From positions 124,001-188,000 of the forward strand of contig NZ_QKVK01000005.1 of NCBI RefSeq assembly GCF_003234965.1: a DNA stretch of 64,000 nt. Reading direction: 5' to 3'. A model generated the notes under the pieces. That model did not search any database, was not told the origin of the DNA, and was given only the letters and a program-made list of their open reading frames with translations. The translations under genes were made by a program, and so were the position numbers. The number at the start of each line of letters is the position of its first letter. Position 1 is the stretch's first letter. Below, piece after piece: positions 12,271 through 25,747 of the stretch. The DNA comes from Aestuariivirga litoralis (GTDB lineage: Bacteria > Pseudomonadota > Alphaproteobacteria > Rhizobiales > Aestuariivirgaceae).

Positions 12271-12804
12271 ATGTCGGACCACGCCGTGAGTGACAGACCG
12301 AACCCTCTGGCGCGCAATCCGCTGGACATGATCGCCAGCGCCCATGCCCTGCAGGTGCAGATGTGCGACGCCATGGAGCGCATCGCCGATGGCCTGCCGG
12401 ACGAGGTGGACCGCCGCCTCTGCGCCCAGGTCGCCTCCTGCCTGCAGTTCGACCTGCCGCTGCACCACCATGACGAGGAAGAAGGCCTCTTCCCGCTGCT
12501 CATGAAGCGGGCGAAACCCGAGGACGGGCTGGACCAGATCCTGGCGCGGCTGGCCTCCGAACATTCCTCCGACAACGACTTCGCCTCGGAGATCGCCGAG
12601 GCGCTGGAAACCCTGGGGCAGGGCGGCCGCCCCGCCAATCCGGAGATGCTGGGCTACATGCTGCGCGGCTTCTTCGAGCGCTACCGCCGCCATGTGCACT
12701 GGGAAAACCAGCTCGTCATGCCGCTCGCCCGCCTCCGCCTCACCCGCGAGGACCTCGACGAGCTGCAGGCCACCATGAACGAGAACCGCCGCCAGGCCAG
12801 CTAG
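12271..12804 (+). CDS. Hemerythrin HHE domain protein
   Basis: A 177-residue, helix-rich cytoplasmic protein with the histidine and carboxylate pattern of the hemerythrin/HHE cation-binding family: SAH near residue 25, HHHDEEEGLFP, EHSSDND and the late HVHWENQLVMP. These would hold a non-heme di-iron centre used for oxygen, NO or iron sensing or handling. The ATG at 12271 is preferred over an upstream TTG at 12235 because an AGGAA lies 10 nt before it and the FNR box geometry fits. It is a single gene, separated by 190 bp from the chemotaxis operon. Low-oxygen induction is inferred from the FNR/FixK box. Confidence 0.85.
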   Translation: MSDHAVSDRPNPLARNPLDMIASAHALQVQMCDAMERIADGLPDEVDRRLCAQVASCLQFDLPLHHHDEEEGLFPLLMKRAKPEDGLDQILARLASEHSSDNDFASEIAEALETLGQGGRPANPEMLGYMLRGFFERYRRHVHWENQLVMPLARLRLTREDLDELQATMNENRRQAS

Positions 12805-12994
12805 GCCGCGAATTCCATTCCTCCTTCCCCACCGGGAGAACGGAATGGACTGCGGCGGCCATCCGCCCTGCCTGCGCGGCCAGGGATTGATTGACCGACG
12901 TCCCTCCAGCCTGACACAAACTTGCCTGCCTAGCCTCTGACCCGAACAGCAGCGGAGCGGGAGGCCATGCGCATGTCCATCGACAAGGTGCCGG

Positions 12995-13291
12995 ATGAGC
13001 GATAGTCCGGGCATCACCACCCTGCGCCTCAGGCCCTCGCTCGACCCGACCGCCATCGAGGAGCTGCTGCGCGACCTCAGGAAGGCCCGCAACACGGCGG
13101 TTGTGGTGGAGGCGGGCGACGTCGCCCGCGTCTCCACCGTGGCGCTGCAGGCGCTGCTCTCCGCCTGGATGACCTGGCGCTCCGACGGGCACGACTTCCA
13201 TGTCGCCGCCGCCTCTCCCGCCCTCGTCGATGCCGCGGCACTGCTCGGCCTCCCCAGGGACTTTCTCGCCCGTGAAGGACTTGCCTCATGA
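12995..13291 (+). CDS. cheS: STAS domain protein, CheS-like
   Basis: A 98-residue single STAS domain (anti-sigma-factor-antagonist fold), with the central segment VVEAGDVARVSTVALQALLSAW. It is the first gene of the che operon, and its stop overlaps the cheY1 start (ATGA). In Sinorhizobium meliloti a protein of about the same size at this same position, CheS, binds CheA and speeds loss of phosphate from CheY1. The equivalence here is inferred from size, fold and gene order. The residue VST at the usual serine/threonine position of STAS phosphorylation keeps an S. Alternative: a generic STAS regulator. Confidence 0.75.
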   Translation: MSDSPGITTLRLRPSLDPTAIEELLRDLRKARNTAVVVEAGDVARVSTVALQALLSAWMTWRSDGHDFHVAAASPALVDAAALLGLPRDFLAREGLAS

Positions 13292-13653
13292 CCGTCACCA
13301 TCCTCACCGTCAATGATTCCCGCACCATGCGCGACATGCTGCGCATGGCCCTCGTCGATGCCGGCTTCCGGGTCGTGCAGGCCGAGGATGGCCTGCATGG
13401 TCTCGACGTGCTGCGCCAGGAGGTGCCGCATGTGGTCATCACCGACATCAACATGCCGCGCATGGATGGTTTCGGCTTCATCGAGGCGGTGCGGCAGGAC
13501 CAGCAGTACCGCGCCATCCCCATCCTGGTGCTGACCACCGAGAGCGACGACGAGAAGAAGGCCCGCGCAAGGCGGGCCGGTGCCACCGGCTGGATCGTCA
13601 AGCCCTTCGACCCGGCGAAGCTCGTCGCCGCCATCCGCCGCGTCGCCGCCTGA
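13288..13653 (+). CDS. cheY1: Chemotaxis response regulator CheY1 (probable phosphate sink)
   Basis: A 121-residue single receiver domain. Phosphoacceptor D53 sits in TDINMPRMDG, the switch threonine in LVLTTES and the conserved lysine in IVKPFDP. One of the usual two acidic residues near the N-terminus is replaced: TVND instead of VVDD, so only D10 of the Mg-binding pair remains. By position (between the CheS-like gene and cheA) it matches rhizobial CheY1, which drains phosphate from CheA rather than driving the motor. It overlaps the upstream gene by 4 bp and is followed 11 bp later by cheA. Confidence 0.88.
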   Translation: MTVTILTVNDSRTMRDMLRMALVDAGFRVVQAEDGLHGLDVLRQEVPHVVITDINMPRMDGFGFIEAVRQDQQYRAIPILVLTTESDDEKKARARRAGATGWIVKPFDPAKLVAAIRRVAA

Positions 13654-13664
13654 GGAGTGTGCTG

Positions 13665-15761
13665 ATGGACCCGATGGCCGAAATCCGCCTCACCTTCTTC
13701 CAGGAATGCGAGGAACAGCTGGCCGCCCTCGAGAATGGCCTGCTCGCCATGCAGGAAGGCGAGACCGATTCCGAAACCGTCAACGCCGTGTTCCGCGCCG
13801 TGCATTCGATCAAGGGCGGGGCGGGGGCCTTCAAGCTCGACGCGCTGGTGAGCTTCGCCCATGTCTTCGAGACGGCGCTGGACAAGGTGCGCTCCGGCAG
13901 CCTCGCGCCCGATGCCGATGCGATGAAGCTGTTCCTGCGCGCCGCCGATGCGCTGGCCGATCTTGTGGCGGCGAGCCGCGACGGCGCGGTGGAGGACGCC
14001 AGCCCCTATGTGGCGATCGAGGAGGAATTCAACGCCCTCATCGGCGGCGGCCCGGCGGAGGAGGAGGATGAATTCGCCGGCATGGACTTCCAGCCCATCG
14101 TCACCGCCTTCGACGAGCCCGCGCCGGCGCGCAACCGCTATGCGATCCGCTTCCGTCCGCTGCGCGAACTCTATGCCAAGGCCAATGAACCACTGGCCCT
14201 GCTGCGCGAGCTTGCCCGGCTCGGGACGCTCGAGTCCCAGTGCGACATCAAGAACCTGCCCTTCCTCGACACCTTCGAACCCGAGGACAGCTATCTCTCC
14301 TGGGAGCTCCAGCTCGACACCGACGCCTCCCTCGCCGCCGTGAAGGAGGTCTTCGACTTCGTCGAGGGCGACTGCGACCTGGCAATCGCGGCGCAGCCGC
14401 CCGCCGAACAGGCAGCGCCTGTGCCGCAGGAGATGGACATCACCGCCATCCTGCGCAAGGTGCGCGAGGAAGCCCCTGCCATCGCCGCCGCCGCCGCTGC
14501 GGCGGCCCCCGCGCAGCCCGAGGCCGAAGCCGCCCCCAAGGCCAGGGCGGTGGTGCAGCCAACGATCCGCGTCGACCTCGACCGCGTCGACCGGCTCATC
14601 AATCTCGTGGGCGAGCTCGTCATCAACCAGGCCATGCTCACCCAGCGCGTGCTGCATTCGAGCCACGTGCGCGACCGCGAGGTGACATCGAGCCTCGAGG
14701 AACTCGAACGCCTGACGCGCGAGATCCAGGAAAGCGTCATGGCCATCCGCGCCCAGCCGGTGCGCCCGCTGTTCCAGCGCATGTCCCGGATCGTGCGCGA
14801 GGTGGCCGATGCCACCGCCAAGGACGTGCGGCTGCGCACCGAGGGCGAGGCGACGGAGGTCGACAAGACGGTGGTCGAGCTCCTTGCCGATCCGCTCACC
14901 CACATGATCCGCAATGCGGTGGACCACGGCCTCGAAAGCCCCGAGCAGCGAACCGCTGCCGGCAAGCCGCCCGAGGGCACGGTCAGGCTTGCCGCGGCGC
15001 ATCGCTCCGGCCGCGTCATCATCGAGGTCAGCGACGATGGCCAGGGCATCAACCGGCCCAGGGTGCTGCAGAAGGCCATCGCCAACGGCCTGGTGCCGCC
15101 CGACGCGCAGCTCTCCGACAGCGAGATCGACAACCTGCTCTTCCTGCCCGGCTTCTCCACCGCCAGTTCGGTGTCCAACATTTCGGGCCGCGGCGTGGGC
15201 ATGGATGTGGTCAAGCGCTCGATCCAGGCCCTGGGCGGCCGCATCTCGATCTCCTCCGCGCCGGGGCAGGGCTCCACCTTCACGCTCTCGCTCCCGCTCA
15301 CGCTCGCGGTGCTCGACGGCATCGTGGTCACGGTCGACGAGCAGGTCTTCGTGATACCGCTCACCGCCATCGTCGAGACGGTGAAGCACGAGCCCTCGCG
15401 CATCCATCACCTAGGGGATCACTCCTTCGTGCTGCGGGTGCGCGACGTGCTGGTGCCGCTGGTCGACGTCGGCGCCGAGCTGGGCGTGAGGGCGCCCGCC
15501 TCCGACCTCCGCTCCGGTGTGGCCATCCTCATCGAGACGGCCAACGGCACCAGGAGCGCGCTGCTCGTCGACAACATCCAGGACCAGCGCCAGGTGGTGA
15601 TCAAGAGCCTCGAGACCAACTACATGCGCGTCGATGGCATCGCCGCCGCCACCATCCTCGGCGATGGCCGCGTGGCGATGATCCTCGACGTCGATGCCCT
15701 GGTCGGCCCGCGCCACCATGACTGGGCGCAGGCCGAAATCCCCCTTGCCAAAGCGAGCTGA
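13665..15761 (+). CDS. cheA: Chemotaxis histidine kinase CheA
   Basis: A 698-residue cytoplasmic kinase that phosphorylates CheY and CheB. Domains in order: HPt with H47 in AVHSIKGGAGAF (1-105), a linker/P2-like region (about 140-245), an Ala/Pro-rich linker, the dimerisation helices (DRVDRLINLVGELVINQAM), the ATPase domain with the N-box HMIRNAVDHGLE and G boxes DDGQGI and GRGVGMDVV, and the C-terminal CheW-like domain. The ATG at 13665 is chosen because TGAGGAG lies 8-14 nt upstream; a GTG at 13659 would overlap that site. Sits in the operon between cheY1 and cheW. Confidence 0.95.
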   Translation: MDPMAEIRLTFFQECEEQLAALENGLLAMQEGETDSETVNAVFRAVHSIKGGAGAFKLDALVSFAHVFETALDKVRSGSLAPDADAMKLFLRAADALADLVAASRDGAVEDASPYVAIEEEFNALIGGGPAEEEDEFAGMDFQPIVTAFDEPAPARNRYAIRFRPLRELYAKANEPLALLRELARLGTLESQCDIKNLPFLDTFEPEDSYLSWELQLDTDASLAAVKEVFDFVEGDCDLAIAAQPPAEQAAPVPQEMDITAILRKVREEAPAIAAAAAAAAPAQPEAEAAPKARAVVQPTIRVDLDRVDRLINLVGELVINQAMLTQRVLHSSHVRDREVTSSLEELERLTREIQESVMAIRAQPVRPLFQRMSRIVREVADATAKDVRLRTEGEATEVDKTVVELLADPLTHMIRNAVDHGLESPEQRTAAGKPPEGTVRLAAAHRSGRVIIEVSDDGQGINRPRVLQKAIANGLVPPDAQLSDSEIDNLLFLPGFSTASSVSNISGRGVGMDVVKRSIQALGGRISISSAPGQGSTFTLSLPLTLAVLDGIVVTVDEQVFVIPLTAIVETVKHEPSRIHHLGDHSFVLRVRDVLVPLVDVGAELGVRAPASDLRSGVAILIETANGTRSALLVDNIQDQRQVVIKSLETNYMRVDGIAAATILGDGRVAMILDVDALVGPRHHDWAQAEIPLAKAS

Positions 15762-15764
15762 GAC

Positions 15765-16235
15765 ATGATCGAGAAATCCGCCCGGGAGCTGACCCGCGAA
15801 GCCGAATTCGTCGCCTTCCGCGCCGGCGGCCTCGAGTTCTGCATCAACATCATGTCGGTGCGCGAGATCCGCGGCTGGACGCCGGCCACCGCCATCCCGC
15901 GGGCACCCTCCTACATCCGCGGCGTCATCAACCTGCGCGGCGTGGTGCTGCCCATCGTCGACCTGGGGGTAAGGCTCGGCCTTCCCGGCACCGAGCCCAC
16001 GGCGCGCCACGTCATCATCGTCGCCCAGGTGGGCGAGCGCGCCGCGGGGCTGCTGGTCGACTCGGTCTCCGACATCCTGTCGGTCGAGGACACCTCGATC
16101 CAGCCCACGCCGGATGTCGCCTCGCAGCTCGCGCGCATGTTCGTGCGCGGCGTCATCGCCATGGATGGCCGCATGATCTCGGTCATCACCATGGACAACG
16201 TGCTGCCCGCGGGCATCGAGCTGGAAGCGGCATGA
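15765..16235 (+). CDS. cheW: Chemotaxis coupling protein CheW
   Basis: A 156-residue CheW-domain protein that links receptors to CheA. It contains the typical ICNxMSVREIRG-like segment, APSYIRGVINLRGVVLPIVDL and the late SVSDILSVEDTSI. It begins 3 bp after cheA. Its stop codon overlaps the ATG of the first mini-ORF of the tandem repeat preceding cheR, so translation downstream is coupled to its termination. Confidence 0.93.
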   Translation: MIEKSARELTREAEFVAFRAGGLEFCINIMSVREIRGWTPATAIPRAPSYIRGVINLRGVVLPIVDLGVRLGLPGTEPTARHVIIVAQVGERAAGLLVDSVSDILSVEDTSIQPTPDVASQLARMFVRGVIAMDGRMISVITMDNVLPAGIELEAA

Positions 16236-16282
16236 AGGGCGTGACATGAAGGACGTGACATGAAGGACGTGACATGAAGGAC
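16232..16282 (+). repeat. 14-bp tandem repeat forming a ladder of overlapping mini-ORFs before cheR
   Basis: Three exact copies of GTGACATGAAGGAC (16241-16254, 16255-16268, 16269-16282) follow a degenerate partial copy at the cheW stop. Because 14 is not a multiple of three, each copy's ATG is in a new frame. ATGs at 16232, 16246 and 16260 each open a five-codon ORF (M-K-G/D-V-T) whose TGA overlaps the next ATG as ATGA; the last overlap delivers the ribosome to the true cheR ATG at 16274. Each GAAGGR just before a start also works as its ribosome-binding site. Confidence 0.85.
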
Positions 16283-17131
16283 CGGGCGCTCGCCTCCGGC
16301 GAGTTCGGCTTCGACCGGAGCGACTTCGCCTTCATCGCCACCACGCTCTACGAGGATGCGGGGATCAGCCTTCCTGCCTCCAAGGCCAACCTCGTCTATT
16401 CGCGCCTCGCCAAGCGGCTGCGTGCGCTGGGGCTGGAAAGCTTCCGCGACTATTGCGAGCTCGTCGGCTCCGACGAGGGCAGCGAGGAGCGCACCCAGAT
16501 GATCGCGGCGCTCACCACCAACGTCACCCGCTTCTTCCGCGAGCCGCACCACTTCGATCACCTGCGCCGCAAGGTGGTGGAGCCGGCCGCGGCCGAGATC
16601 CGGCAGGGCCGGCGCCTGCGCATCTGGTCGGCCGGCTGCTCGTCGGGGCAGGAGCCCTATTCCATCGCGCTCACCCTGCTCTCGGTCATCCCCGATGCGC
16701 GCGCCTATGACGTCAGGATCCTCGCCACCGACATCAACCCCATCGTGCTGGAGCAGGCGCGCAAGGCCACCTATCCGGCCGAGGAGGTGGTGAGCGTTCC
16801 CGCCGACATGCGCAAGAGCTGGATGGAGCCCACCGGCATCGGCACGCTGCGCCTCGACGAGGCGCCGCGCGGCCTCGTGTCCTTCCGGCCGCTCAACCTC
16901 ATCGGCAGCTGGCCGATGAAGGGGCCCTTCGATGCCGTGTTCTGCCGCAACGTGGTGATCTATTTCGACGAGAAGACCCAGATGCGACTGCTCACCCGCC
17001 TGTCGTCACTGCTCCGGCCCGGCGGCTACCTCTATCTCGGCCATTCCGAACGCATGGTGGGCCCGGCCGAAGCGTTGTTCCGCCTCGAGGGCACGACGAC
17101 CTACCGGAAGCTCGGGGGCGACCACGCATGA
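16274..17131 (+). CDS. cheR: Chemoreceptor methyltransferase CheR
   Basis: A 285-residue SAM-dependent methyltransferase that methylates chemoreceptor glutamates. It has the N-terminal helical domain (VYSRLAKRLRALGLESF; TNVTRFFREPHHF), the SAM-binding motif WSAGCSSGQEPYSIA, ATDINPIVLEQARKA and the C-terminal DAVFCRNVVIYFDEKTQ and GGYLYLGHSE. The start at 16274 is the last ATG of the tandem repeat ladder and gives the normal family length. It overlaps cheB by 4 bp. Confidence 0.95.
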   Translation: MKDRALASGEFGFDRSDFAFIATTLYEDAGISLPASKANLVYSRLAKRLRALGLESFRDYCELVGSDEGSEERTQMIAALTTNVTRFFREPHHFDHLRRKVVEPAAAEIRQGRRLRIWSAGCSSGQEPYSIALTLLSVIPDARAYDVRILATDINPIVLEQARKATYPAEEVVSVPADMRKSWMEPTGIGTLRLDEAPRGLVSFRPLNLIGSWPMKGPFDAVFCRNVVIYFDEKTQMRLLTRLSSLLRPGGYLYLGHSERMVGPAEALFRLEGTTTYRKLGGDHA

Positions 17132-18144
17132 GCCGCATCCGGGTCCTGGTCGTCGATGACAGTCCCACCATGCGCCAGCTCGTCACCCGCGCGCTGCAGG
17201 CGGATGGCGGGATCGAGGTGGCGGGTGCCGCCGCCTCGGCGCTGGAGGCGCGCGACCTCATCAAGCAGCTGAACCCCGACGTGATGACGCTCGACGTCGA
17301 GATGCCGGAAATGGACGGCCTCTCCTTCCTCGAGCGCGTCATGCGGCTTCGGCCCATGCCCGTGGTCATGGTCTCGACGCTGACCGCGCAGGGCACCGAA
17401 ACGGCGATCTCGGCGCTGGCGCTGGGGGCTGTGGACTGCGTGGTGAAGCCGTCGGCGGCGAATCCGACGAGCTTCGACGAGCTTCCCGCCAAGGTGAAGG
17501 TGGCCGCCCGGGTGAAGCGCCGCGTGCCGGCCGCCGAGCCGGAGCCCGCGCCTGGCTTCCGCGGCAGCTACCAGCCCGGCAACAAGGTGATCGCCATCGG
17601 CTCCTCCACCGGCGGCGTCGAGGCGCTGATCGCGGTGCTCACGCGCTTTCCGGCCAATTGCGTGCCCACCGTCGTCACCCAGCACATGCCGCCGGTCTTC
17701 ACCCGCAACCTGGCGCAGCGGCTGGACCGCATGTGCGCCCCCCAGGTGCTGGAGGCCACCCATGGCGCCCCCCTGAAGGTGGGTACCATCTATGTGGCAC
17801 CCGGCGGCGACATGCACCTCGAGGTGTCGGCGCAGTCCTGCCTGCTGAAGCCGGGCGGCCCGGTGAACGGCCATTGCCCCTCCGTCGACCGGCTGTTCCA
17901 GTCGGTGGCGCGCAGCATCGGCCCGCGCGCCGTCGGCGCCCTGCTCACCGGCATGGGCCGCGATGGCGCGCAGGGGCTGCTCGAGATGCGCCGGGCCGGC
18001 GCCCGCACCTTTGCGCAGGATGAGGCAAGCTCCGTCGTCTACGGCATGCCGCGCGCCGCCATGGAACTGGGCGCGGCCGAACATCAATATTCCCTCACCC
18101 GCATCGGCCCGGCCCTCGTCGAGGCCGCGGCGGCGAAAAGCTAG
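17128..18144 (+). CDS. cheB: Chemotaxis methylesterase/deamidase CheB
   Basis: A 338-residue, two-domain protein. Residues 1-120 form a receiver (VVDDSPTMR, phosphoacceptor D56 in TLDVEMPEMDG). The C-terminal methylesterase domain contains the catalytic serine in IGSSTGGVEAL, the histidine in TQHMPPVFT and the aspartate in GMGRDGAQGLLEMRRAGA. It removes methyl groups placed by CheR, with activity raised by CheA-dependent phosphorylation. Coupled to cheR by an ATGA overlap. Confidence 0.95.
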   Translation: MSRIRVLVVDDSPTMRQLVTRALQADGGIEVAGAAASALEARDLIKQLNPDVMTLDVEMPEMDGLSFLERVMRLRPMPVVMVSTLTAQGTETAISALALGAVDCVVKPSAANPTSFDELPAKVKVAARVKRRVPAAEPEPAPGFRGSYQPGNKVIAIGSSTGGVEALIAVLTRFPANCVPTVVTQHMPPVFTRNLAQRLDRMCAPQVLEATHGAPLKVGTIYVAPGGDMHLEVSAQSCLLKPGGPVNGHCPSVDRLFQSVARSIGPRAVGALLTGMGRDGAQGLLEMRRAGARTFAQDEASSVVYGMPRAAMELGAAEHQYSLTRIGPALVEAAAAKS

Positions 18145-18156
18145 TGGAGTCCCTTC

Positions 18157-18546
18157 ATGCCCTTCATGCAGCACCTCAAGGTGATGGTGGTCGACGATAC
18201 CTCGGTGAGCCGCATGCTGCTCGTCGACGGCCTGAACGAGATCGGCATCAAGAACACCGTGCTCGCCGCCGATGGCGAACAGGCGCTGCAGCTGATGATG
18301 CAGGGGCCCTGCCACATCGTGTTCTCCGACATGAACATGCCGAAGCTCAACGGGCTGCAGCTGCTGAAGGCGCTGCGCGAATACCAGCCCACCCGGCAAT
18401 GCTGCTTCATCCTCGTCACCGGCAAGGGCGACCGCGCCATGATCGAGGAGGGCAAGAAATACGGCCTCAACAACTTCCTCGCCAAGCCCTTCACCACGGC
18501 GACACTCAAGGCCGCGATCGAGGCCGTGGTGGGCAAGCTCGTCTGA
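18157..18546 (+). CDS. cheY2: Chemotaxis response regulator CheY2 (probable motor regulator)
   Basis: A 129-residue receiver with the full acidic set: VVDD at residues 11-14, D58 in FSDMNMPKLNG, the threonine in ILVTGKG and the lysine in LAKPFTT. By position after cheB and before cheD it corresponds to rhizobial CheY2, the regulator that acts on the flagellar motor. The ATG at 18157 lies 12 bp after the cheB stop, with GTGGAG just upstream. Confidence 0.9.
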   Translation: MPFMQHLKVMVVDDTSVSRMLLVDGLNEIGIKNTVLAADGEQALQLMMQGPCHIVFSDMNMPKLNGLQLLKALREYQPTRQCCFILVTGKGDRAMIEEGKKYGLNNFLAKPFTTATLKAAIEAVVGKLV

Positions 18547-19070
18547 TGCAGCATCCAGGCCACCACCCGCGCATCAACATCGTGCAGGGCGAATACCACG
18601 TGAGCGGCGACAGGGCACTCTCCATCACCACGCTGCTCGGCTCCTGTGTTGCCGCCTGCCTGCATGATCCGGTGGCGCAGGTGGGTGGCATGAATCATTT
18701 CCTGCTGCCGGGTGACGAGGCCGCCACGGCGCTCTTTGCGCGCCACGGCGTGCACCTCATGGAGCTGCTCATCAACGGCCTGCTCAAGAAGGGCGCGGCG
18801 CGCGAGCGGCTGGAGGCCAAGCTGTTCGGCGGGGCCCGCACCATGCAGGGCCTGGGCGACATCGGCGCCGGCAATGCCAGGTTCGCGCAGGAGTTCCTCC
18901 GGCGCGAGGGCATCACCGTCACCGGCGGCAGCCTCGGCGGCGAAACCGGCCGCCGCATCCAGTTCTGGCCCGCCTCCGGCCGGGTGATGCAGAAACTCGT
19001 GCGCGCCGTGGAGGAAAAGCCGCTTGCCGACGCCGTCCTGCCCAGTGCGGGCGATCTGGAGCTGTTCTGA
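18546..19070 (+). CDS. cheD: Chemoreceptor glutamine deamidase CheD
   Basis: A 174-residue CheD with the catalytic cysteine in LLGSCVAACLHD, the histidine in GGMNHFLLP and a C-terminal GRRIQFWPASGRVMQK segment. It deamidates receptor glutamines and, in some bacteria, partners CheC. The ATG shares its first base with the last base of the cheY2 stop (TGATG). A longer in-frame reading from 18144 is not real because it would cross cheY2. Confidence 0.93.
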   Translation: MQHPGHHPRINIVQGEYHVSGDRALSITTLLGSCVAACLHDPVAQVGGMNHFLLPGDEAATALFARHGVHLMELLINGLLKKGAARERLEAKLFGGARTMQGLGDIGAGNARFAQEFLRREGITVTGGSLGGETGRRIQFWPASGRVMQKLVRAVEEKPLADAVLPSAGDLELF

Positions 19071-19072
19071 CC

Positions 19073-19432
19073 ATGAGCCACCTGCCGCTGCCCGTCCTGC
19101 TGTCGCAGCTCTCGCATGAACTCGGCGCCCTGCAGCTCATGGCCGCCGACATGGAGGCCACGGTGGATGACATGATCGAGCGCCACGCCGGCGTGCTCGA
19201 CGCGCGCTCGATCCAGAACCTGCAGCTTCTCGACATCCTGAACCAGACGCTGCTGGCGCTGGCGCAATATGCCGCCAACACCGCAGCGCTGTGTTCGCCC
19301 GAGTGGAAGGCCGATGGCGTCGCCACCGTCCACGGCATCACCCTCGCCAGCCTCGCCCACCGCCTGTCACGCGGCACCGGCCAGGCCGTGAAGGTGGAGG
19401 CCGAGAGCTATGAGCTGTTCTCGGACGCGTGA
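19073..19432 (+). CDS. cheT: CheT-like chemotaxis protein with DXXXQ motif
   Basis: A 119-residue, mostly helical protein starting 2 bp after cheD, so it is the last gene of the che operon. Residues 54-58 read DILNQ within a predicted helix (NLQLLDILNQTLLALAQ), which is the DXXXQ pattern of CheZ-type phosphatases. In Sinorhizobium meliloti the last gene of the equivalent operon encodes CheT, a DXXXQ protein reported to speed CheY1 dephosphorylation and bind CheR. Identity here is inferred from position, size and motif, not from alignment. Confidence 0.72.
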   Translation: MSHLPLPVLLSQLSHELGALQLMAADMEATVDDMIERHAGVLDARSIQNLQLLDILNQTLLALAQYAANTAALCSPEWKADGVATVHGITLASLAHRLSRGTGQAVKVEAESYELFSDA

Positions 19433-19477
19433 GACGATGCCTTCTCCCGCCGCGGCCAGCGATGGGAAAAGGTTTGC

Positions 19478-20125
19478 TCACTCGTTCGAATAATCACCCT
19501 CTCCATCACCATCGCTCCGCCAGTCATTGTCATAGCCATCGCCGCCGCCGGAGGAGCCGCTGTCATTGTCCCAGCCCGGCACCCGGCTGCGGTCACGCTT
19601 GCCGCGCCAGGTCTGGCGCTCCTGGTAATACTCGTTGGGCGTGTAGCCGCCCTCGCCATCGCCCCAGCTGCCATGGTGGCGGTGATGCCAGTCCATGCCG
19701 TCCATCCCCATCCCCATGCCCATCCCCATCCCCATTCCCCAACCCGCGGGGTAGCAGGCGAAGGAGCCGAAGCCGCCCATCGGCGCCGGGCTCACGCAGG
19801 TCATCATGCCCTGCATCATCGGCTGGCCGCCCCAGCCACCCTGATTCCACGGCGGGCTGCCGGAGGACGTGCCATGGATATTGGGGTTGGGTGACTGGCT
19901 CCCCGGCGTGGCGCTGCCGCTGGTTTCGGGCGCGGTGGAACTGCTGCCCATCCCGGTGGTCGACCCGCTGCCCGTATTGCTGCCGGTCGCGCTGGAGGGG
20001 CCGTCCGTTCCTGGCGTGGTGGCCGTCGGCGGCGTGCCGGTTCCCGTGGCGGTGGACTGCGCCAGCGCGCCGGTGGCGAGTGCGGTCGAAGCAATGAGGG
20101 CCAGCAGCAGGGAGGTCTTCATCAT
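19478..20125 (-). CDS. Exported low-complexity Gly/Ser/Met-rich protein
   Basis: A 215-residue protein of no recognised family. The ATG pair at 20125/20122, preceded by AGGAGAA, gives the signal peptide MMKTSLLLALIASTALATGALA. The mature part is low complexity: Ser/Thr/Gly/Pro-rich (residues 25-90), a short region with two cysteines (TCVSPAPMGGFGSFACYPAG), then alternating Gly-Met repeats, a His-rich patch (DWHHRHHGSWGDG) and an acidic Gly/Asp/Ser tail. The Met and His clusters could bind copper or other metals, but that is a guess. It is convergent with the che operon end and divergent from the dmm operon. Confidence 0.7.
   Translation of the reverse strand: MMKTSLLLALIASTALATGALAQSTATGTGTPPTATTPGTDGPSSATGSNTGSGSTTGMGSSSTAPETSGSATPGSQSPNPNIHGTSSGSPPWNQGGWGGQPMMQGMMTCVSPAPMGGFGSFACYPAGWGMGMGMGMGMGMDGMDWHHRHHGSWGDGEGGYTPNEYYQERQTWRGKRDRSRVPGWDNDSGSSGGGDGYDNDWRSDGDGEGDYSNE
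19701..19740. repeat. Hexanucleotide repeat coding for Gly-Met repeats
   Basis: A run of CCCCAT/CCCATG-type hexamers on the plus strand encodes the (Gly-Met)n tract of the exported low-complexity protein on the minus strand. Unit changes would be in frame and alter only the length of the tract. Confidence 0.7.
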
Positions 20126-20599
20126 GGTTCTCCTGATCGGGGGTGTGATCGGGGGAGAACAGTGCGCCCGCCCGCGCAGTTCCGGTGCGGGCGGCAAATC
20201 CATGAAGGGCAGGGGCCACAAGCGTGCGGCGGGCGAGGAGCGCCATCAGGGCAATGATCAAGCGGATCAGCATTGCAGTCCCTCCCGTCCGCCGCACCAC
20301 CGGCGGCCGGGGAGGGATATGGCACGGCCTGGCGGATAAGTCAAGAAAATCCTATTTAAGGAATAAACATTATAGACCTCGCATATGCGCATCCGCTCAT
20401 GTCGCATCCGCCCGGTGGTCAAATCGCCGCACGCCGCGTGCATCACCTTCACGCCGCACGCGCTGCGTGCTTCAGTTCGGGCATTCCGCTGCCATCCATT
20501 CGCGACGCAATTCCCCCATGAGACGACTTGCGCTTCTCCGATTCCCGTGTACAGTTCGGAAAAAATAATTCCATACAGGAAACACAGAGGAGGAGACTG
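20126..20599. promoter_or_regulatory. 474-bp gene-free divergent region upstream of dmmD
   Basis: No convincing gene is present. The central part (20341-20390) is clearly AT-rich, with TATTTAAGGAATAAACATTATAG giving possible promoter elements (TTATAG-like -10). The dyad GCATATGC follows near 20391. The segment 20430-20475 contains direct CACGCCGC repeats. Just before the dmmD gene there are overlapping dyads GGAA-N7-TTCC and TTCC-N5-GGAA within about 20558-20581, a plausible regulator site, and then a strong GAGGAGGAG ribosome-binding site. No transcription factor gene lies next to this region, so the regulator of the amine cluster is not in view. Confidence 0.45.
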
Positions 20600-21733
20600 A
20601 TGCCGCTTTCCTGGAGATTTTCGGTCCTTGGCGACCGTCACCGTGCCCTGGGCTCGAAGCTCGAAGACTGGAGCGGCATGGGCACCGCCTGGACCTATGA
20701 CAAGGACATCTACGCCGAGCACATCGCCGTCCGCACCAAAGCCGGCCTGATGGACGTCTCAGGGCTGAAGAAGGTCCACCTCGTGGGCCCGCACGCCATC
20801 GCGGTGCTCGACTACATCACCACCCGCGACATGAACAAGGTCTATCCCGGCAAGTCGGTCTATGCCTGCATGCTCAACGACCGCGGCATGTTCACCGACG
20901 ACTGCATCGTCTACCGCACCGGCCCCAATTCCTGGATGCTGGTCCACGGTTCGGGTACCGCGCATGAGGAAGTGATCAAGCAGTCGCTGGGCCGCAACGT
21001 CGCCGTGCTGTTCGATGACGATCTCCATGATCTCTCGCTGCAGGGCCCGGTCGCCGTCGATTTCCTCGCCCAGCACGTGCCGGGAATCCGCGACCTCAAG
21101 TACTTCCACCACATGCAGACCACGCTGTTCGGCGCCCCCGTCATGATCTCGCGCACCGGCTACACCGGCGAGCGCGGCTACGAGATCTTCGTGCGCGGCC
21201 AGGACGCGCCCATGGTGTGGGACACCATCCTCGAGAAGGGCAAGTCGATGGGCATCATCCCCGTCTGCTTCAGCGTGCTCGACATGCTGCGCGTCGAGAG
21301 CTACCTGCTGTTCTATCCCTACGACAACTCGCAGATGTATCCCTTCCCCGACCAGCCCCCGGGCGATTCGCTGTGGGAACTCGGCCTCGACTTCACGGTG
21401 AGCCCTGGCAAGACCGGCTTCCGCGGTGCCGAGGAGCACTACAAGCTCAAGGGCAAGGAACGCTTCAAGATCTTCGGCGTGCTGGTCGAGCACGACGGTC
21501 CGGTGGACCTTGGCGACGAGGTCTGGGCCGATGGCCGCAAGGTCGGCGTCGTCACCTGCCCCAGCTACTCGAAGCTCACCAAGAAGAGCATGGGCATCGC
21601 CCGCCTCGAGGTTCCCTATGCCAAGCAGGGAACCCCGCTCGAGATCCGCGGCAAGAACGTGAAGGCCAAGGCGATTGCCCACACCATCACCTTCGACGAT
21701 CCGGAAAAGAAAAAGCGCACCGCGGTGGGCTAA
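20600..21733 (+). CDS. dmmD: Dimethylamine monooxygenase-associated GcvT-like subunit (DmmD)
   Basis: A 377-residue aminomethyltransferase (GcvT) family protein that should bind tetrahydrofolate. Typical segments are KAGLMDVSGLKKVHLVGPHA, MLNDRGMFTDDCIVYR, the ISRTGYTGERGYEIFV fold-type motif and FRGAEEHYKLKG. It is the first of four tightly spaced genes in the order known as dmmDABC for dimethylamine monooxygenase, also called heme-dependent oxidative N-demethylase. There the GcvT-like subunit is thought to take the formaldehyde from demethylation onto tetrahydrofolate. The ATG at 20600 follows GAGGAGGAGACTG. GcvT-fold is sure; the DmmD role rests on context. Confidence 0.82.
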   Translation: MPLSWRFSVLGDRHRALGSKLEDWSGMGTAWTYDKDIYAEHIAVRTKAGLMDVSGLKKVHLVGPHAIAVLDYITTRDMNKVYPGKSVYACMLNDRGMFTDDCIVYRTGPNSWMLVHGSGTAHEEVIKQSLGRNVAVLFDDDLHDLSLQGPVAVDFLAQHVPGIRDLKYFHHMQTTLFGAPVMISRTGYTGERGYEIFVRGQDAPMVWDTILEKGKSMGIIPVCFSVLDMLRVESYLLFYPYDNSQMYPFPDQPPGDSLWELGLDFTVSPGKTGFRGAEEHYKLKGKERFKIFGVLVEHDGPVDLGDEVWADGRKVGVVTCPSYSKLTKKSMGIARLEVPYAKQGTPLEIRGKNVKAKAIAHTITFDDPEKKKRTAVG

Positions 21734-21748
21734 GGAAAGAAAGGGCGA

Positions 21749-22354
21749 ATGCTCGTAGCTGGTATCAAGAGCCGCCCTGTGTACGGCGGACTGAACGTCG
21801 CAAGCCACGCCAAGCGGCACCTCTTCGCCCTCGAGGGCGAAGGGGCGCTCGCCCTGATCGACCAGGTCAGGGCGGCGGGGCCGGACTTCCTCCGGAAGTC
21901 GGACATCCTTTATGTCGCTTCGGGCTCCGCCGCTCACGAACACGACAAGGCATTGGCGAAGCTGGGCGCCGACACGTTGTGGGTGGCGCCCACCATCCCC
22001 GTCCTCCTCAACCGTCTGAACGTCATGCTTGGCCAGGCCCACATGGGCACCCACATCTATCTCTCGGGCACCGAGGGCTTCATGGGGCAGGCCCAGCAGG
22101 TGGCGATGAACCACGGCGCCGACCCCGCCTCGCTCCACATGGAGCATCGCGGCTCCACGGCGCGGCGCGTGCAGTGCGTGCACTGCAAGGGCATCACCGA
22201 CAGCGTGACGACGAGCCCCTACACCTGCACGCATTGCGGCCTGTCGCTCCTGGTGCGTGACCACTATTCCCGCCGTCTCGGCGCCTTCCAGGGCGTCTGC
22301 ATCGATGCGGAGGAGCCCGGTACCGCGCCCAAGCCGGAGGAATTGTTCCCGTGA
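21749..22354 (+). CDS. dmmA: Dimethylamine monooxygenase subunit DmmA-like
   Basis: A 201-residue protein with a C-terminal zinc-ribbon or rubredoxin-like region: two CXXC pairs at CVHC and CTHC in the segment around residues 145-170. The N-terminal part (YVASGSAAHEHDKALAKLGAD ... TIPVLLNRLNVML) resembles the DmmA-family component. It would be an electron-transfer or assembly subunit of the demethylase. It starts 15 bp after dmmD, and its stop overlaps the GTG start of dmmB. The exact job of DmmA is not clear in the family. Confidence 0.75.
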   Translation: MLVAGIKSRPVYGGLNVASHAKRHLFALEGEGALALIDQVRAAGPDFLRKSDILYVASGSAAHEHDKALAKLGADTLWVAPTIPVLLNRLNVMLGQAHMGTHIYLSGTEGFMGQAQQVAMNHGADPASLHMEHRGSTARRVQCVHCKGITDSVTTSPYTCTHCGLSLLVRDHYSRRLGAFQGVCIDAEEPGTAPKPEELFP

Positions 22355-23316
22355 CCATCAACACCGAAATGAAGGTCCGCGTGGCGAAGATCACGCAGGT
22401 GGCGGACCAGGTGAAGCGCTTCCGCTTCGAGCGCGTCGACGGCCAGCCCATGCCGGTCTTCTCCGGCGGTGCGCATGTCATCGTGTCGATGCGGGACGGC
22501 AAGGCGCTGCGCCGCAATCCCTATTCACTCATGTCCTCTCCTGCGGACACCGCGGGCTATGAGATCAGCGTGCTGCGCGTGGAAAACTCGCGCGGCGGCT
22601 CGGCCTTCCTGCACGAGACGCTGAAGGAGGGCGATGAACTCGTCCTCAGCCAGCCGGTCAACCTCTTTGCCTACGACCATCGCGGCAAGAAGCACATCAT
22701 GATGGCGGGCGGCATCGGCATTACCCCCTTCATCGCCATGATGGACCAGATGGAGCGCGAGGGGAAAAACTTCGAACTGCACTATGCGGTGAGAACCCGC
22801 ACCCACGGCGCCTACTGGAAGGAACTGCAGCAGCGCTATGGTGCGCATCGCGTGAAGGTCTATTGCGACGCGGAGAAGCTGTTCATTCCCGTCGAGAAGG
22901 TGCTGGAGAACCAGCCGCTCGGAACCCACCTCTATGTCTGCGGCCCTGCCGGCATGATCAATGGCGTGCTCGGCAAGGCGCGTGATCTCGGCTGGCCGAA
23001 GCAGAACCTGCACTCGGAGGAATTCCTGGCGCCGCCGCCGGGCAAGGCCTTCCAGGTCAAGCTCGCGAAGTCGAACCGCACCATCGACGTGGCGCCACAC
23101 CAGAGCATTCTCGAAGCGCTCGAGGCCAATGGCGTCGACGCACCCTATCTCTGCCGCGGCGGTGCCTGCGGACAATGCGAAACCGGCGTGATCTCGTGTG
23201 ACGGCGAGCTCGAGCACAACGACCACTTCCTCGAGCCGGACGACAAGGCCTCGGGAAAGAAGATCATGATCTGCGTGTCCCGCATCAAGGGCAACGCCGT
23301 CACCCTCGACCTCTAG
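22351..23316 (+). CDS. dmmB: Dimethylamine monooxygenase reductase DmmB (PDR/VanB type)
   Basis: A 321-residue flavin/ferredoxin reductase. Domains in order: a flavin-binding barrel (RRNPYSLMSSP), an NAD(P)-binding domain (MMAGGIGITPFIAMM; LYVCGPAGMI) and a C-terminal plant-type [2Fe-2S] ferredoxin with CRGGACGQCETG and a later cysteine in MICVSR. It passes electrons from NAD(P)H to the heme subunit. The GTG at 22351 overlaps the dmmA stop (GTGA), which fixes the start. Family membership is firm; the partner assignment follows from the operon. Confidence 0.88.
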   Translation: MTINTEMKVRVAKITQVADQVKRFRFERVDGQPMPVFSGGAHVIVSMRDGKALRRNPYSLMSSPADTAGYEISVLRVENSRGGSAFLHETLKEGDELVLSQPVNLFAYDHRGKKHIMMAGGIGITPFIAMMDQMEREGKNFELHYAVRTRTHGAYWKELQQRYGAHRVKVYCDAEKLFIPVEKVLENQPLGTHLYVCGPAGMINGVLGKARDLGWPKQNLHSEEFLAPPPGKAFQVKLAKSNRTIDVAPHQSILEALEANGVDAPYLCRGGACGQCETGVISCDGELEHNDHFLEPDDKASGKKIMICVSRIKGNAVTLDL

Positions 23317-23328
23317 GAGTTCGCGTCC

Positions 23329-24372
23329 ATGAACATCACATTCAAGAACGAAACCTTCCGCGACGACTACACCTTCAGGAATTCCCCCGAGGCGATCCGC
23401 CGCTTCCCCTTCCCCTTCAACGAAGACAAGTACATGTATTCGGTGAACATGGAGCCCCATGTTCCCGCCGGTCCCGCCGGCCACGCCTATAACAAGCCGA
23501 TCGACGTCGACGAGCACTACCTTGGCGAAATGGCCGACCGCGCCAAGGTGCTGAAGGAAGATCCGCTGCGCTACCAGGCGCTGCCGCACATGATGGCCGC
23601 CCAGTGGGACACGCTGGAGCTCCTGATGGAAGCGCAGGCCGAAGGCTACCCCGAGCACTTCACGCTGGAGAAGAACGGCGACCAGTGGCGCTGGATCAAC
23701 CGCCCGATGGGCATCGACCAGACCTTCACCTTCGGCGACGCCTCGACGCTGCCGATGGAGCCTCTCGAATTCATCACCCGGCAGGTGCAGGGCGATGTGG
23801 TCATCGTCGACCAGCGCGACGGCCAGCTGTGGTGCGATGCCGGCATGGTCACGACCCAGGCCGACTGGTCGCTCGACTTCGACATCGGCATGAACTTCCA
23901 CGAGTGGCACGGCCCCGTGCCGCTGGCCCACGAGATCGGCGTGTTCGACCGCGCGCTCAAGTTCCTGCTGAACCTCCAGCAGGGCAAGCCGGTGCGCCGC
24001 CTCAACTGGACCATGACGATCAACCCGCGCCTCGACACGAGCCCGGAGAACTATCACAAGTGGGGTGCCGACCGCGCCACCGTGACGCCGGAGAATGTCG
24101 GCAACAAGGTGCACCTGCGCTGCGAACTGCAGACGCTGTGGCGCCTGCCGCGCTCCAACGCCATCCTCTTCGTCATCCGCTGCTACCTGATCAAGATGGA
24201 AGAGCTGGTGACCGTGCCCAAATGGGCGCGCCGCTTCCACCGCGTGCTCCGTGACCTGCCGCCGGAGCTGGCGGACTACAAGGGTCTGACCCGCTACCGC
24301 CCGACCACCATCGAGTGGTTGTCGAAGTTTGACGACGGCCAGCCGACCTCTCCCGGCATCTATCCGGAATGA
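23329..24372 (+). CDS. dmmC: Heme-dependent oxidative N-demethylase catalytic subunit (DUF3445, DmmC)
   Basis: A 347-residue DUF3445 protein, the catalytic PAS-like heme subunit of dimethylamine monooxygenase. Family features visible are the N-terminal RDDYTFRNSPEAIRRFPFPF, MAAQWDTLELLMEAQAEGYP, the central ADWSLDFDIGMNFHEWHGPVP (the family HxxVP-like site) and RCELQTLWRLPRSNAILFVIRCY. The enzyme oxidises dimethylamine to methylamine and formaldehyde using O2. It lies 12 bp after dmmB with TAGGAG upstream, and 34 bp before tmm. Confidence 0.88.
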   Translation: MNITFKNETFRDDYTFRNSPEAIRRFPFPFNEDKYMYSVNMEPHVPAGPAGHAYNKPIDVDEHYLGEMADRAKVLKEDPLRYQALPHMMAAQWDTLELLMEAQAEGYPEHFTLEKNGDQWRWINRPMGIDQTFTFGDASTLPMEPLEFITRQVQGDVVIVDQRDGQLWCDAGMVTTQADWSLDFDIGMNFHEWHGPVPLAHEIGVFDRALKFLLNLQQGKPVRRLNWTMTINPRLDTSPENYHKWGADRATVTPENVGNKVHLRCELQTLWRLPRSNAILFVIRCYLIKMEELVTVPKWARRFHRVLRDLPPELADYKGLTRYRPTTIEWLSKFDDGQPTSPGIYPE

Positions 24373-24406
24373 GCAAGGCAAAGAAGACAAGCACTAGGGA
24401 GACACC

Positions 24407-25747
24407 ATGACGAGAGTTGCAGTTATCGGCGCAGGCCCTTCGGGCCTGGCGGCGCTTCGCGCCTTCCAGTCCGCGAAGAAGAAGGGGGCCAAGATCCCCG
24501 AGATCGTCTGCTATGAAAAGCAGGACGACTGGGGCGGCCTTTGGAAATACACCTGGCGCACCGGCCTCGATGAATATGGCGAGCCCGTGCACTGCTCCAT
24601 GTACCGCTACCTGTGGTCCAACGGGCCCAAGGAGTGCCTCGAATTCGCCGACTACACCTTCGAAGAGCATTTCGGCAAGCCGATCGCCTCCTACCCGCCG
24701 CGCGCCGTGCTGTGGGACTATATCGTCGGCCGCGTGAAGAAGGCGGGTGTGCGCAAGTGGATCCGCTTCAACACGCCCGTGCGCATGGTCGAGTACGACA
24801 AGAAGAAAAAGAAGTTCCTGGTGACGGCGCACAACCGCCCGAAGGACATCATGACCACCGAGGAATATGACTACGTCATCTGCGCCTCGGGCCACTTCTC
24901 GACTCCGATCACGCCGTTCTTCCCCGGCCTCGATTCGTTCAACGGGCGCGTGCTGCACGCCCATGACTTCCGTGATGCCCTGGAATTCAAGGGCAAGGAC
25001 GTGCTGATCATCGGCCGCAGCTATTCGGCCGAGGACATCGGCTCGCAGTGCTGGAAATACGGTGCCAAGTCGGTGACCACCACCTACCGCTCGCGTCCGA
25101 TGGGCTTCAAGTGGCCGAAGAACTTCGAGGAGCGCCCGCTCCTCCAGAAGGTCGAGGGCAAGACGGCCTATTTCAAGGACGGCACGAAGAAGGATGTCGA
25201 CGCCATCATCCTGTGCACCGGCTACCAGCACTACTTCCCCTACCTGCCGGAGGAGCTGCGCCTCAAGACGCACAACCGCCTGTGGCCGGAGAACCTCTAC
25301 AAGGGCGTTGTGTGGCAGGACAATCCGAAGTTCTTCTACATCGGAATGCAGGACCAGTATTACACCTTCAACATGTTCGACGCCCAGGCGTGGTACGTGC
25401 GTGACATCATCCTCGGCCGTATCAAGCTGCCCAAGCCCGATGCCATGAAGAAGGACTGGAAGAAGTGGCTTGCCCGCGAGAAGAAGCTCGCAGGGCCGGA
25501 GCAGGACATCAAGTTCCAGGGCGACTACGTCAAGGAGCTGATCGACGCGACGGACTATCCGAGCTTCGACATCGAGGGCGTCAACAAGACCTTCCTCGTG
25601 TGGGAGCACCACAAGGCAGAGGACATCATGGGCTTCCGCAACAACTCCTACCGCTCGCTGATGACGGGCACGATGAGCCCCAAGCACCACACGCCGTGGA
25701 AGGACGCGCTGGACGACTCGCTCGAGGCTTACCTCGCCAACAAGTAA
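24407..25747 (+). CDS. tmm: Trimethylamine monooxygenase
   Basis: A 446-residue flavin-containing monooxygenase that oxidises trimethylamine to trimethylamine N-oxide using NADPH and O2. Motifs: FAD-binding GAGPSG (residues 8-13), the FMO-type [16 protein letters not shown]-binding [10 protein letters not shown], and the late [14 protein letters not shown]. The length and the presence of dmm genes before it and tdm after it make Tmm much more likely than a generic FMO. It shares the operon with dmmDABC. Its end is convergent with tdm, with two copies of the 80-bp hairpin element between them. Confidence 0.9.

Follow-up and report, generated by a model that had tools for sequence, protein, structure and literature searches.

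Gene pairs in which the start codon overlaps the preceding stop codon at a spacing of -4 nt (ATGA) are known as termination-reinitiation pairs (PMC6728339, PMC10666635). For E. coli, it is reported that the last 15 nt of the upstream ORF are enough for coupling, and that with a gap of +38 nt reinitiation fell by 80-90% in two pairs and was lost altogether in a third; an opposing view, based on ribosome profiling after recycling-factor depletion, holds that ribosomes start de novo more often than they reinitiate (PMC10666635). The E. coli chemotaxis pairs cheR_cheB, cheB_cheY, cheY_cheZ, and cheA_cheW are translationally coupled, and coupling of cheW or a receptor gene to cheR has been suggested to hold the levels of receptor and methyltransferase in ratio (PMC2716512). 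Repeats at start codons are also described. According to a 2025 review, MIRU (mycobacterial interspersed repetitive units) appear to be mobile, insert at start codons, and carry an ORF coupled with -4 nt spacing; the same review gives a short upstream ORF that delivers the ribosome to the next gene (PMC12548453). Between senX3 and regX3, MIRU occur as 77-bp units in 1-7 copies, mostly together with a 53-bp unit (PMC2453075, PMC4213456); by our own arithmetic, both lengths are 2 mod 3. Finally, TAACTGA heptamers are short intergenic tandem repeats by start codons for which a translational role has been proposed (PMC4679880).

We analyzed a junction of this kind in the chemotaxis operon of Aestuariivirga litoralis, within a 64-kb stretch of DNA that we refer to as the window (Table 1). 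The array between cheW and cheR was read directly as ATGAAGGGCGTGAC ATGAAGGACGTGAC ATGAAGGACGTGAC ATGAAGGAC, and it contains three exact tandem copies of the 14-bp unit GTGACATGAAGGAC. The preliminary description of this DNA had reported these copies together with three interlocked mini-ORFs, and both are correct to the base in the sequence, the list of ORFs, and the translations. The mini-ORFs, which we call rungs, repeat every 14 nt and hold five codons each (15 coding nt), and an ATGA start-stop overlap is present at all four junctions from cheW through cheR. Because 14 is 2 mod 3 and each junction is ATGA, every added unit is a closed mini-ORF whose TGA lies on the next ATG, which supports the geometry of a reinitiation ladder as it had been proposed. 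The fourth ladder ATG is the sole start of cheR, with no upstream in-frame ATG, GTG, or TTG before a stop codon is reached.

Table 1. Features of the cheW-cheR ladder and its flanking genes (positions in the window).
Feature	Position	Strand	Details
cheA	13659..15761	+	Hpt, H-kinase_dim, HATPase_c, and CheW domains; TGA 3 nt before cheW ATG
cheW	15765..16235	+	PF01584, 6.4e-38; stop TGA 16233-16235 overlaps ATG1 (16232)
Array	16232..16282		ATGAAGGGCGTGAC ATGAAGGACGTGAC ATGAAGGACGTGAC ATGAAGGAC
Rung 1, mini-ORF MKGVT	16232..16249	+	TGA 16247-16249 overlaps ATG2; sequence and translation
SD-like GAAGGG	16234..16239	+	6 nt before ATG2; sequence, anti-SD energy
Gap from cheW stop to cheR start	16236..16273		38 nt
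Repeat copy 1	16241..16254	+	Exact 14-bp unit
Rung 2, mini-ORF MKDVT	16246..16263	+	TGA 16261-16263 overlaps ATG3; sequence and translation
SD-like GAAGGA	16248..16253	+	6 nt before ATG3; sequence, anti-SD energy
Repeat copy 2	16255..16268	+	Exact 14-bp unit
Rung 3, mini-ORF MKDVT	16260..16277	+	TGA 16275-16277 overlaps cheR ATG; sequence and translation
SD-like GAAGGA	16262..16267	+	6 nt before cheR ATG; sequence, anti-SD energy
Repeat copy 3	16269..16282	+	Exact 14-bp unit
cheR	16274..17131	+	PF01739, 4.1e-64; started by the fourth ladder ATG (16274)
cheB	17128..18144	+	PF01339, 2.2e-59; ATG on cheR TGA (ATGA, 17128-17131)

The array is the best tandem repeat in the window (score 97 versus 65 for the runner-up, among 58 rows). 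No further copy of the unit was found elsewhere in the window with up to one mismatch, and shuffled sequence gave a mean of 0.01 matches, with three matches in none of 100 shuffles. Across the whole genome, the 22-nt array motif (up to two mismatches) matched a single locus, in three overlapping registers. An artefact of assembly is hard to credit: the array is only 51 nt long, which should be shorter than usual reads, and lies well inside a 321-kb contig. We likewise consider it very improbable that the array is a protein- or RNA-binding repeat; direct repeats can be binding sites, although nothing specific points to one here, no Rfam match was obtained at gathering threshold in window positions 12800-19600, and binding leaves the start and stop codons in every unit unexplained.

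Compared with the described systems, the locus shares the overlap of the known ATGA pairs at each of its junctions but differs from them in having four overlaps in series through three tandem five-codon ORFs. The rungs would have the same hand-over role as the single short upstream ORF reported with MIRU, except that here there are several near-identical ones, by tandem duplication. What MIRU and the ladder have in common is a unit that holds an ORF overlapping the flanking stop and start codons. MIRU are larger, dispersed, and apparently mobile, whereas the cheW-cheR unit is 14 bp long, is confined to one genomic locus rather than belonging to a dispersed family, and resembles the start of cheR; the comparison is one of layout and length, the lengths themselves differing (14 versus 77 and 53 bp) though all are 2 mod 3. 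MIRU also stand in tandem with a variable number of copies; the cheW-cheR junction was read in one genome of its species, and copy number differs among the analogous ladders described below. TAACTGA heptamers form a genome-wide family in certain genomes and, in the accessible part of that report, are not described as start-stop chains linking two genes (PMC4679880). As regards contingency-locus VNTRs, in which a change of copy alters expression or reading frame, copy number at the ladder leaves the protein reading frames unaffected, and any effect would be on expression. We conclude that coupled mini-ORF repeats are already known in kind, with MIRU the nearest to this locus, while the scattered 14-nt micro-version, apparently self-derived, is undescribed as far as our searches went, since no published account of such micro-ladders was found at the level of titles and abstract openings.

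To place the ladder among its relatives, we compared the cheW-cheR junction, as had been suggested with the original claim. A survey of 37 genomes of the genus returned the CheR family (E <= 0.001) in 15, the window's own included, and 12 other members with a readable upstream cheW make up the comparison (L005-L016), leaving aside L020 (no upstream cheW match) and L034 (weak match). The ladder is present in none of these 12. In 10 of them the cheR ATG lies directly on the cheW TGA (ATGA overlap), one has TGATG, and one has its cheR start 7 or 19 nt downstream, so that the ladder is known from one species of the genus (one genome of that species). Outside the genus, L017 has an ATGA overlap, L019 has the cheR ATG at +8, and L018 gave no cheW match. 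A wider, named set from GTDB returned 80 cheR loci (one of them, L035, very probably duplicates the genome of genus locus L011), 61 with cheW just upstream and 19 without. Taking the overlapping start where several were possible, 53 of the 61 permit start and stop to overlap by 4 nt or by 1 nt (28 ATGA, 13 GTGA/TTGA, and 12 TRATG, against 8 with neither). Direct start-stop overlap is the rule at this junction and is likely the ancestral state. Because relatives show the direct overlap, the most plausible reading is that Aestuariivirga litoralis gained the ladder. Aligned with the first 14 nt of cheR, the unit agrees at 11 of 14 positions, compared with a mean of 7.0 and a maximum of 8 for the other ATGA sites of the locus (n = 11), which is consistent, apart from the GTGAC part of the unit, with an origin by duplication of cheR's own start.

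We propose, with a probability of about 0.52, that the ladder arose recently, by tandem expansion where cheW and cheR overlap, and keeps cheW-to-cheR coupling. Expansion at the start-stop overlap would have produced the three 14-nt units; a ribosome leaving cheW would then reach cheR after four in-place rounds of termination and restart, crossing just one overlap per step and never the full 38-nt gap, and each rung offers the 15 coding nt that are enough for coupling in E. coli. Ancestral coupling could in this way be retained over a distance that would otherwise largely abolish it. Judging from the E. coli data, little coupling should survive a gap of 38 nt, so that the rungs most likely serve to preserve it, although they are possibly only tolerated. 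The level of CheR would be set by the efficiencies of all steps multiplied together, with a contribution from ribosomes that start de novo at the moderate GAAGGA site, and CheB would be coupled behind. Translation of the rungs, the efficiency of each step, a phenotype, and selection for the ladder are all things we infer.

A competing explanation, to which we give appreciable though lesser weight, is that the array is a neutral slippage scar: a harmless 14-bp duplication, with cheR started mainly de novo at GAAGGA and the rungs incidental. Such a duplication would be harmless because duplicating the ATGA junction leaves both proteins intact, and chance alone would give a length of 2 mod 3 in one case out of three. 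That none of the 12 other genus members in the comparison has the ladder fits a scar, and the SD-like GAAGGA at 6-nt spacing before cheR gives it a start site; because the cheR start carries its own moderate SD, coupling may be unnecessary. We estimated the anti-SD energies at ATG1-ATG4 as -3.7, -5.0, -5.9, and -5.9 kcal/mol, and 25% of 300 random positions attained -5.6 kcal/mol. The sites are moderate and not outstanding. What argues against a scar is that the cheR SD with the ladder (-5.9) is hardly better than in relatives with direct overlap (median -5.6, n = 11). For the same reason, strengthening of the SD is weak as a candidate for the main effect of the ladder.

The preliminary description had also given each step its own GAAGGR SD. 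This holds before ATG2, ATG3, and ATG4 but fails at ATG1, on the cheW overlap, which has a weak site only and whose start codon is predicted to be almost fully paired (2% unpaired); both points weigh against coupling through the ladder. An SD on every rung can be dismissed as a general rule: when we scored 13 other ladders (clpS counted once), only three, those of SpoIIE-like, RsmD, and ECH, had an SD on every ATG after the first. Ladders before a ThiS-like and a ThiP-like gene keep perfect phase with rungs practically without SD, the second by way of an irregular 20-nt first rung, and this too speaks against incidental rungs.

How far such ladders extend beyond cheR was asked in 210 genomes of Alphaproteobacteria (class sample), searched for four ATGA at spacings of 14, 11, or 17 nt (2 mod 3, ladder) or at control spacings of 13, 10, or 16 nt (1 mod 3), and in 398 genomes of the phylum at the 14-nt spacing only. 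This pattern misses ladders with fewer than three rungs, an irregular period, or GTG/TTG starts. Defining a gene-to-gene ladder as one whose first TGA closes one gene and whose last ATG opens the next, we found six besides cheW-cheR, with all rungs 2 mod 3. Those from the class sample link an oxidoreductase to the ThiS-like protein and a solute-binding protein to the ThiP-like permease (rungs of 20+14+14+14 nt; ThiP models below cut-offs), both in G094, and a SixA-like protein to a 463-aa protein in G147 (17-nt rungs; SixA-like below cut-off, Pfam His_Phos_1 above). The phylum sample added HATPase to a SpoIIE-like protein (G305), ferredoxin reductase to RsmD (G474), and a cupredoxin to a 327-aa protein (G337). 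Neither the 463-aa nor the 327-aa protein had a family match; codon composition supports the former clearly and the latter weakly. Ladders before an M24 peptidase, a Sel1 protein, a LysR regulator, and an enoyl-CoA hydratase had no upstream gene end that we could find, and others precede clpS and a histidine kinase, where the upstream side fell outside our trace; the histidine kinase ladder has inner stops in its first two rungs. Two candidates were rejected as spurious ORFs by codon-position GC: L147 (11-nt units) as a gene bridge, and a 284-codon ORF before the ThiP-like gene, where the true upstream gene ends one 20-nt rung earlier.

These data do not establish that the ladder phase is under selection, because every frame-class comparison was non-significant (Fisher p 0.11-0.43), as a scar would predict. 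Matched genomes in the class sample (ATGA versus the reversed pattern AGTA, n = 210) numbered 11 versus 4, 7 versus 3, and 4 versus 1 at 14, 11, and 17 nt, and 5 versus 7, 4 versus 3, and 4 versus 2 at 13, 10, and 16 nt (control counts taken from the result tables), and ladder lengths were not significantly over-represented relative to control lengths (Fisher p 0.16). In the phylum sample there was no enrichment at 14 nt (21 versus 22 of 398 genomes). The class sample yielded 26 distinct ladder-length arrays (one further duplicate excluded) and 18 control-length arrays; several arrays, in AT-rich genomes, are chance spacings rather than repeats. An array ATG opened a Pfam gene in 7/26 versus 2/18 (p 0.27, or 0.43 with cheW-cheR excluded), and the last array ATG did so in 7/26 versus 1/18 (p 0.11). 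Gene-to-gene ladders made up 4 of the 26 ladder-length arrays (cheW-cheR included) and none of the 18 controls; the phylum sample held its three further ones among 22 distinct arrays, cheW-cheR again included.

Two control arrays stand at real genes. Thymidylate kinase starts from the last ATG of one, with its domain beginning at residue 39. The other (L141, G094 contig C13) is a 13-nt array, ATGAGGGGAGGAA, rich in SD-like sequence and lying just before an FMN oxidoreductase gene that starts from the fourth of five ATGs; its domain begins at residue 30, and residue 20 is a further in-frame ATG. This is a repeated-SD leader, not a ladder. We considered whether reinitiation ladders are a general bacterial architecture, repeatedly self-generated, for protein-silent, slip-prone translational control at operon junctions and leaders, in which a gene's own ATGA start would be duplicated in tandem, in units whose length is 2 mod 3, each adding an interlocked mini-ORF. 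We regard this generalization as doubtful, and hold it less probable because a second control-length array, that of the FMN oxidoreductase, adjoins a real gene. In another array, of 16 nt (L170 in G085), the last ATG starts a 155-codon ORF whose codon composition is unusual and for which Pfam gave no match. We take the L170 array to resemble a dispersed intergenic repeat.

Outside cheR, entire rungs are gained and lost in ladder arrays with little or no change in the protein. The clpS leaders of seven members of G245's genus hold 1, 3, 4, 7, 4, 1, and 0 in-register NTGA units (L176-L182; the count for L181 omits one further degenerate unit, and the contig of L177 ends 131 nt upstream), and the ClpS proteins behind them are 87-100% identical. 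In some of these genomes the first rung is GTG or TTG. On G094 contig C1, one oxidoreductase/ThiS-like junction occurs twice, with 3 and 4 rungs (L131, L134), and a single 14-nt gap is the sole difference in a 263-nt alignment; this pair may reflect a strain mixture or the assembly, as one of the two is at the end of a contig and N runs are near both. The proposal that copy number could change without touching either protein is thus borne out at the clpS leaders and in G094; these cases do not establish it for cheW-cheR itself, which was read in one genome of its species. Ladders of at least three 14-nt rungs were found in G094 alone among 10 genomes of its genus; their absence from the other nine, in which shorter ones would have escaped the search, again suits a scar. 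Because ladders are absent from congeners both at cheW-cheR and in G094's genus, they look short-lived.

These changes also bear on the idea that the array is a slip-prone translational rheostat, maintained because copy changes adjust CheR/CheB output within populations. Copy number differs in the analogous ladders, and the cheW-cheR units, being near-identical, are capable of slipping, but three short units should be a weak slippage target, and we think this idea improbable. Its original form, tuning of the CheR:CheB ratio, is not supported as stated, as an ATGA overlap also links cheR to cheB. Because the cheB start overlaps the cheR stop, CheR and CheB should shift together relative to CheA and CheW, and copy number would scale the two jointly.

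If the rungs are translated, these loci are natural experiments on the disputed question of in-place restart versus fresh initiation at stop-start overlaps, with one ribosome restarting four times (cheR) or about seven times (longest clpS leader) in series. Because the same ribosome must restart serially, output as a function of rung number would directly measure per-step efficiency. Translated ladders would also be a repeat class that alters expression by copy number with proteins unchanged. Even if they are neutral, ladders show that tandem duplication can be tolerated at ATGA junctions, and such rungs would be overlooked by gene callers that set a minimum length.

We additionally observed period-7 ATGANNN arrays, each of which amounts to two interleaved 14-nt ladders, at L191, L192, L193, L195, L198, L199, L200, L202, L205, and L206. 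That of L191 runs into an IS200-like transposase ORF, and at L192 a phage integrase ORF ends within the array. Within the window, a hexamer is repeated 7.2 times at 19702-19745, inside a minus-strand ORF (19478-20221), where it encodes a Gly-Met repeat. Further downstream, at 20528-25747, lies a cluster that we take to resemble methylamine/trimethylamine oxidation genes with a flavin monooxygenase.
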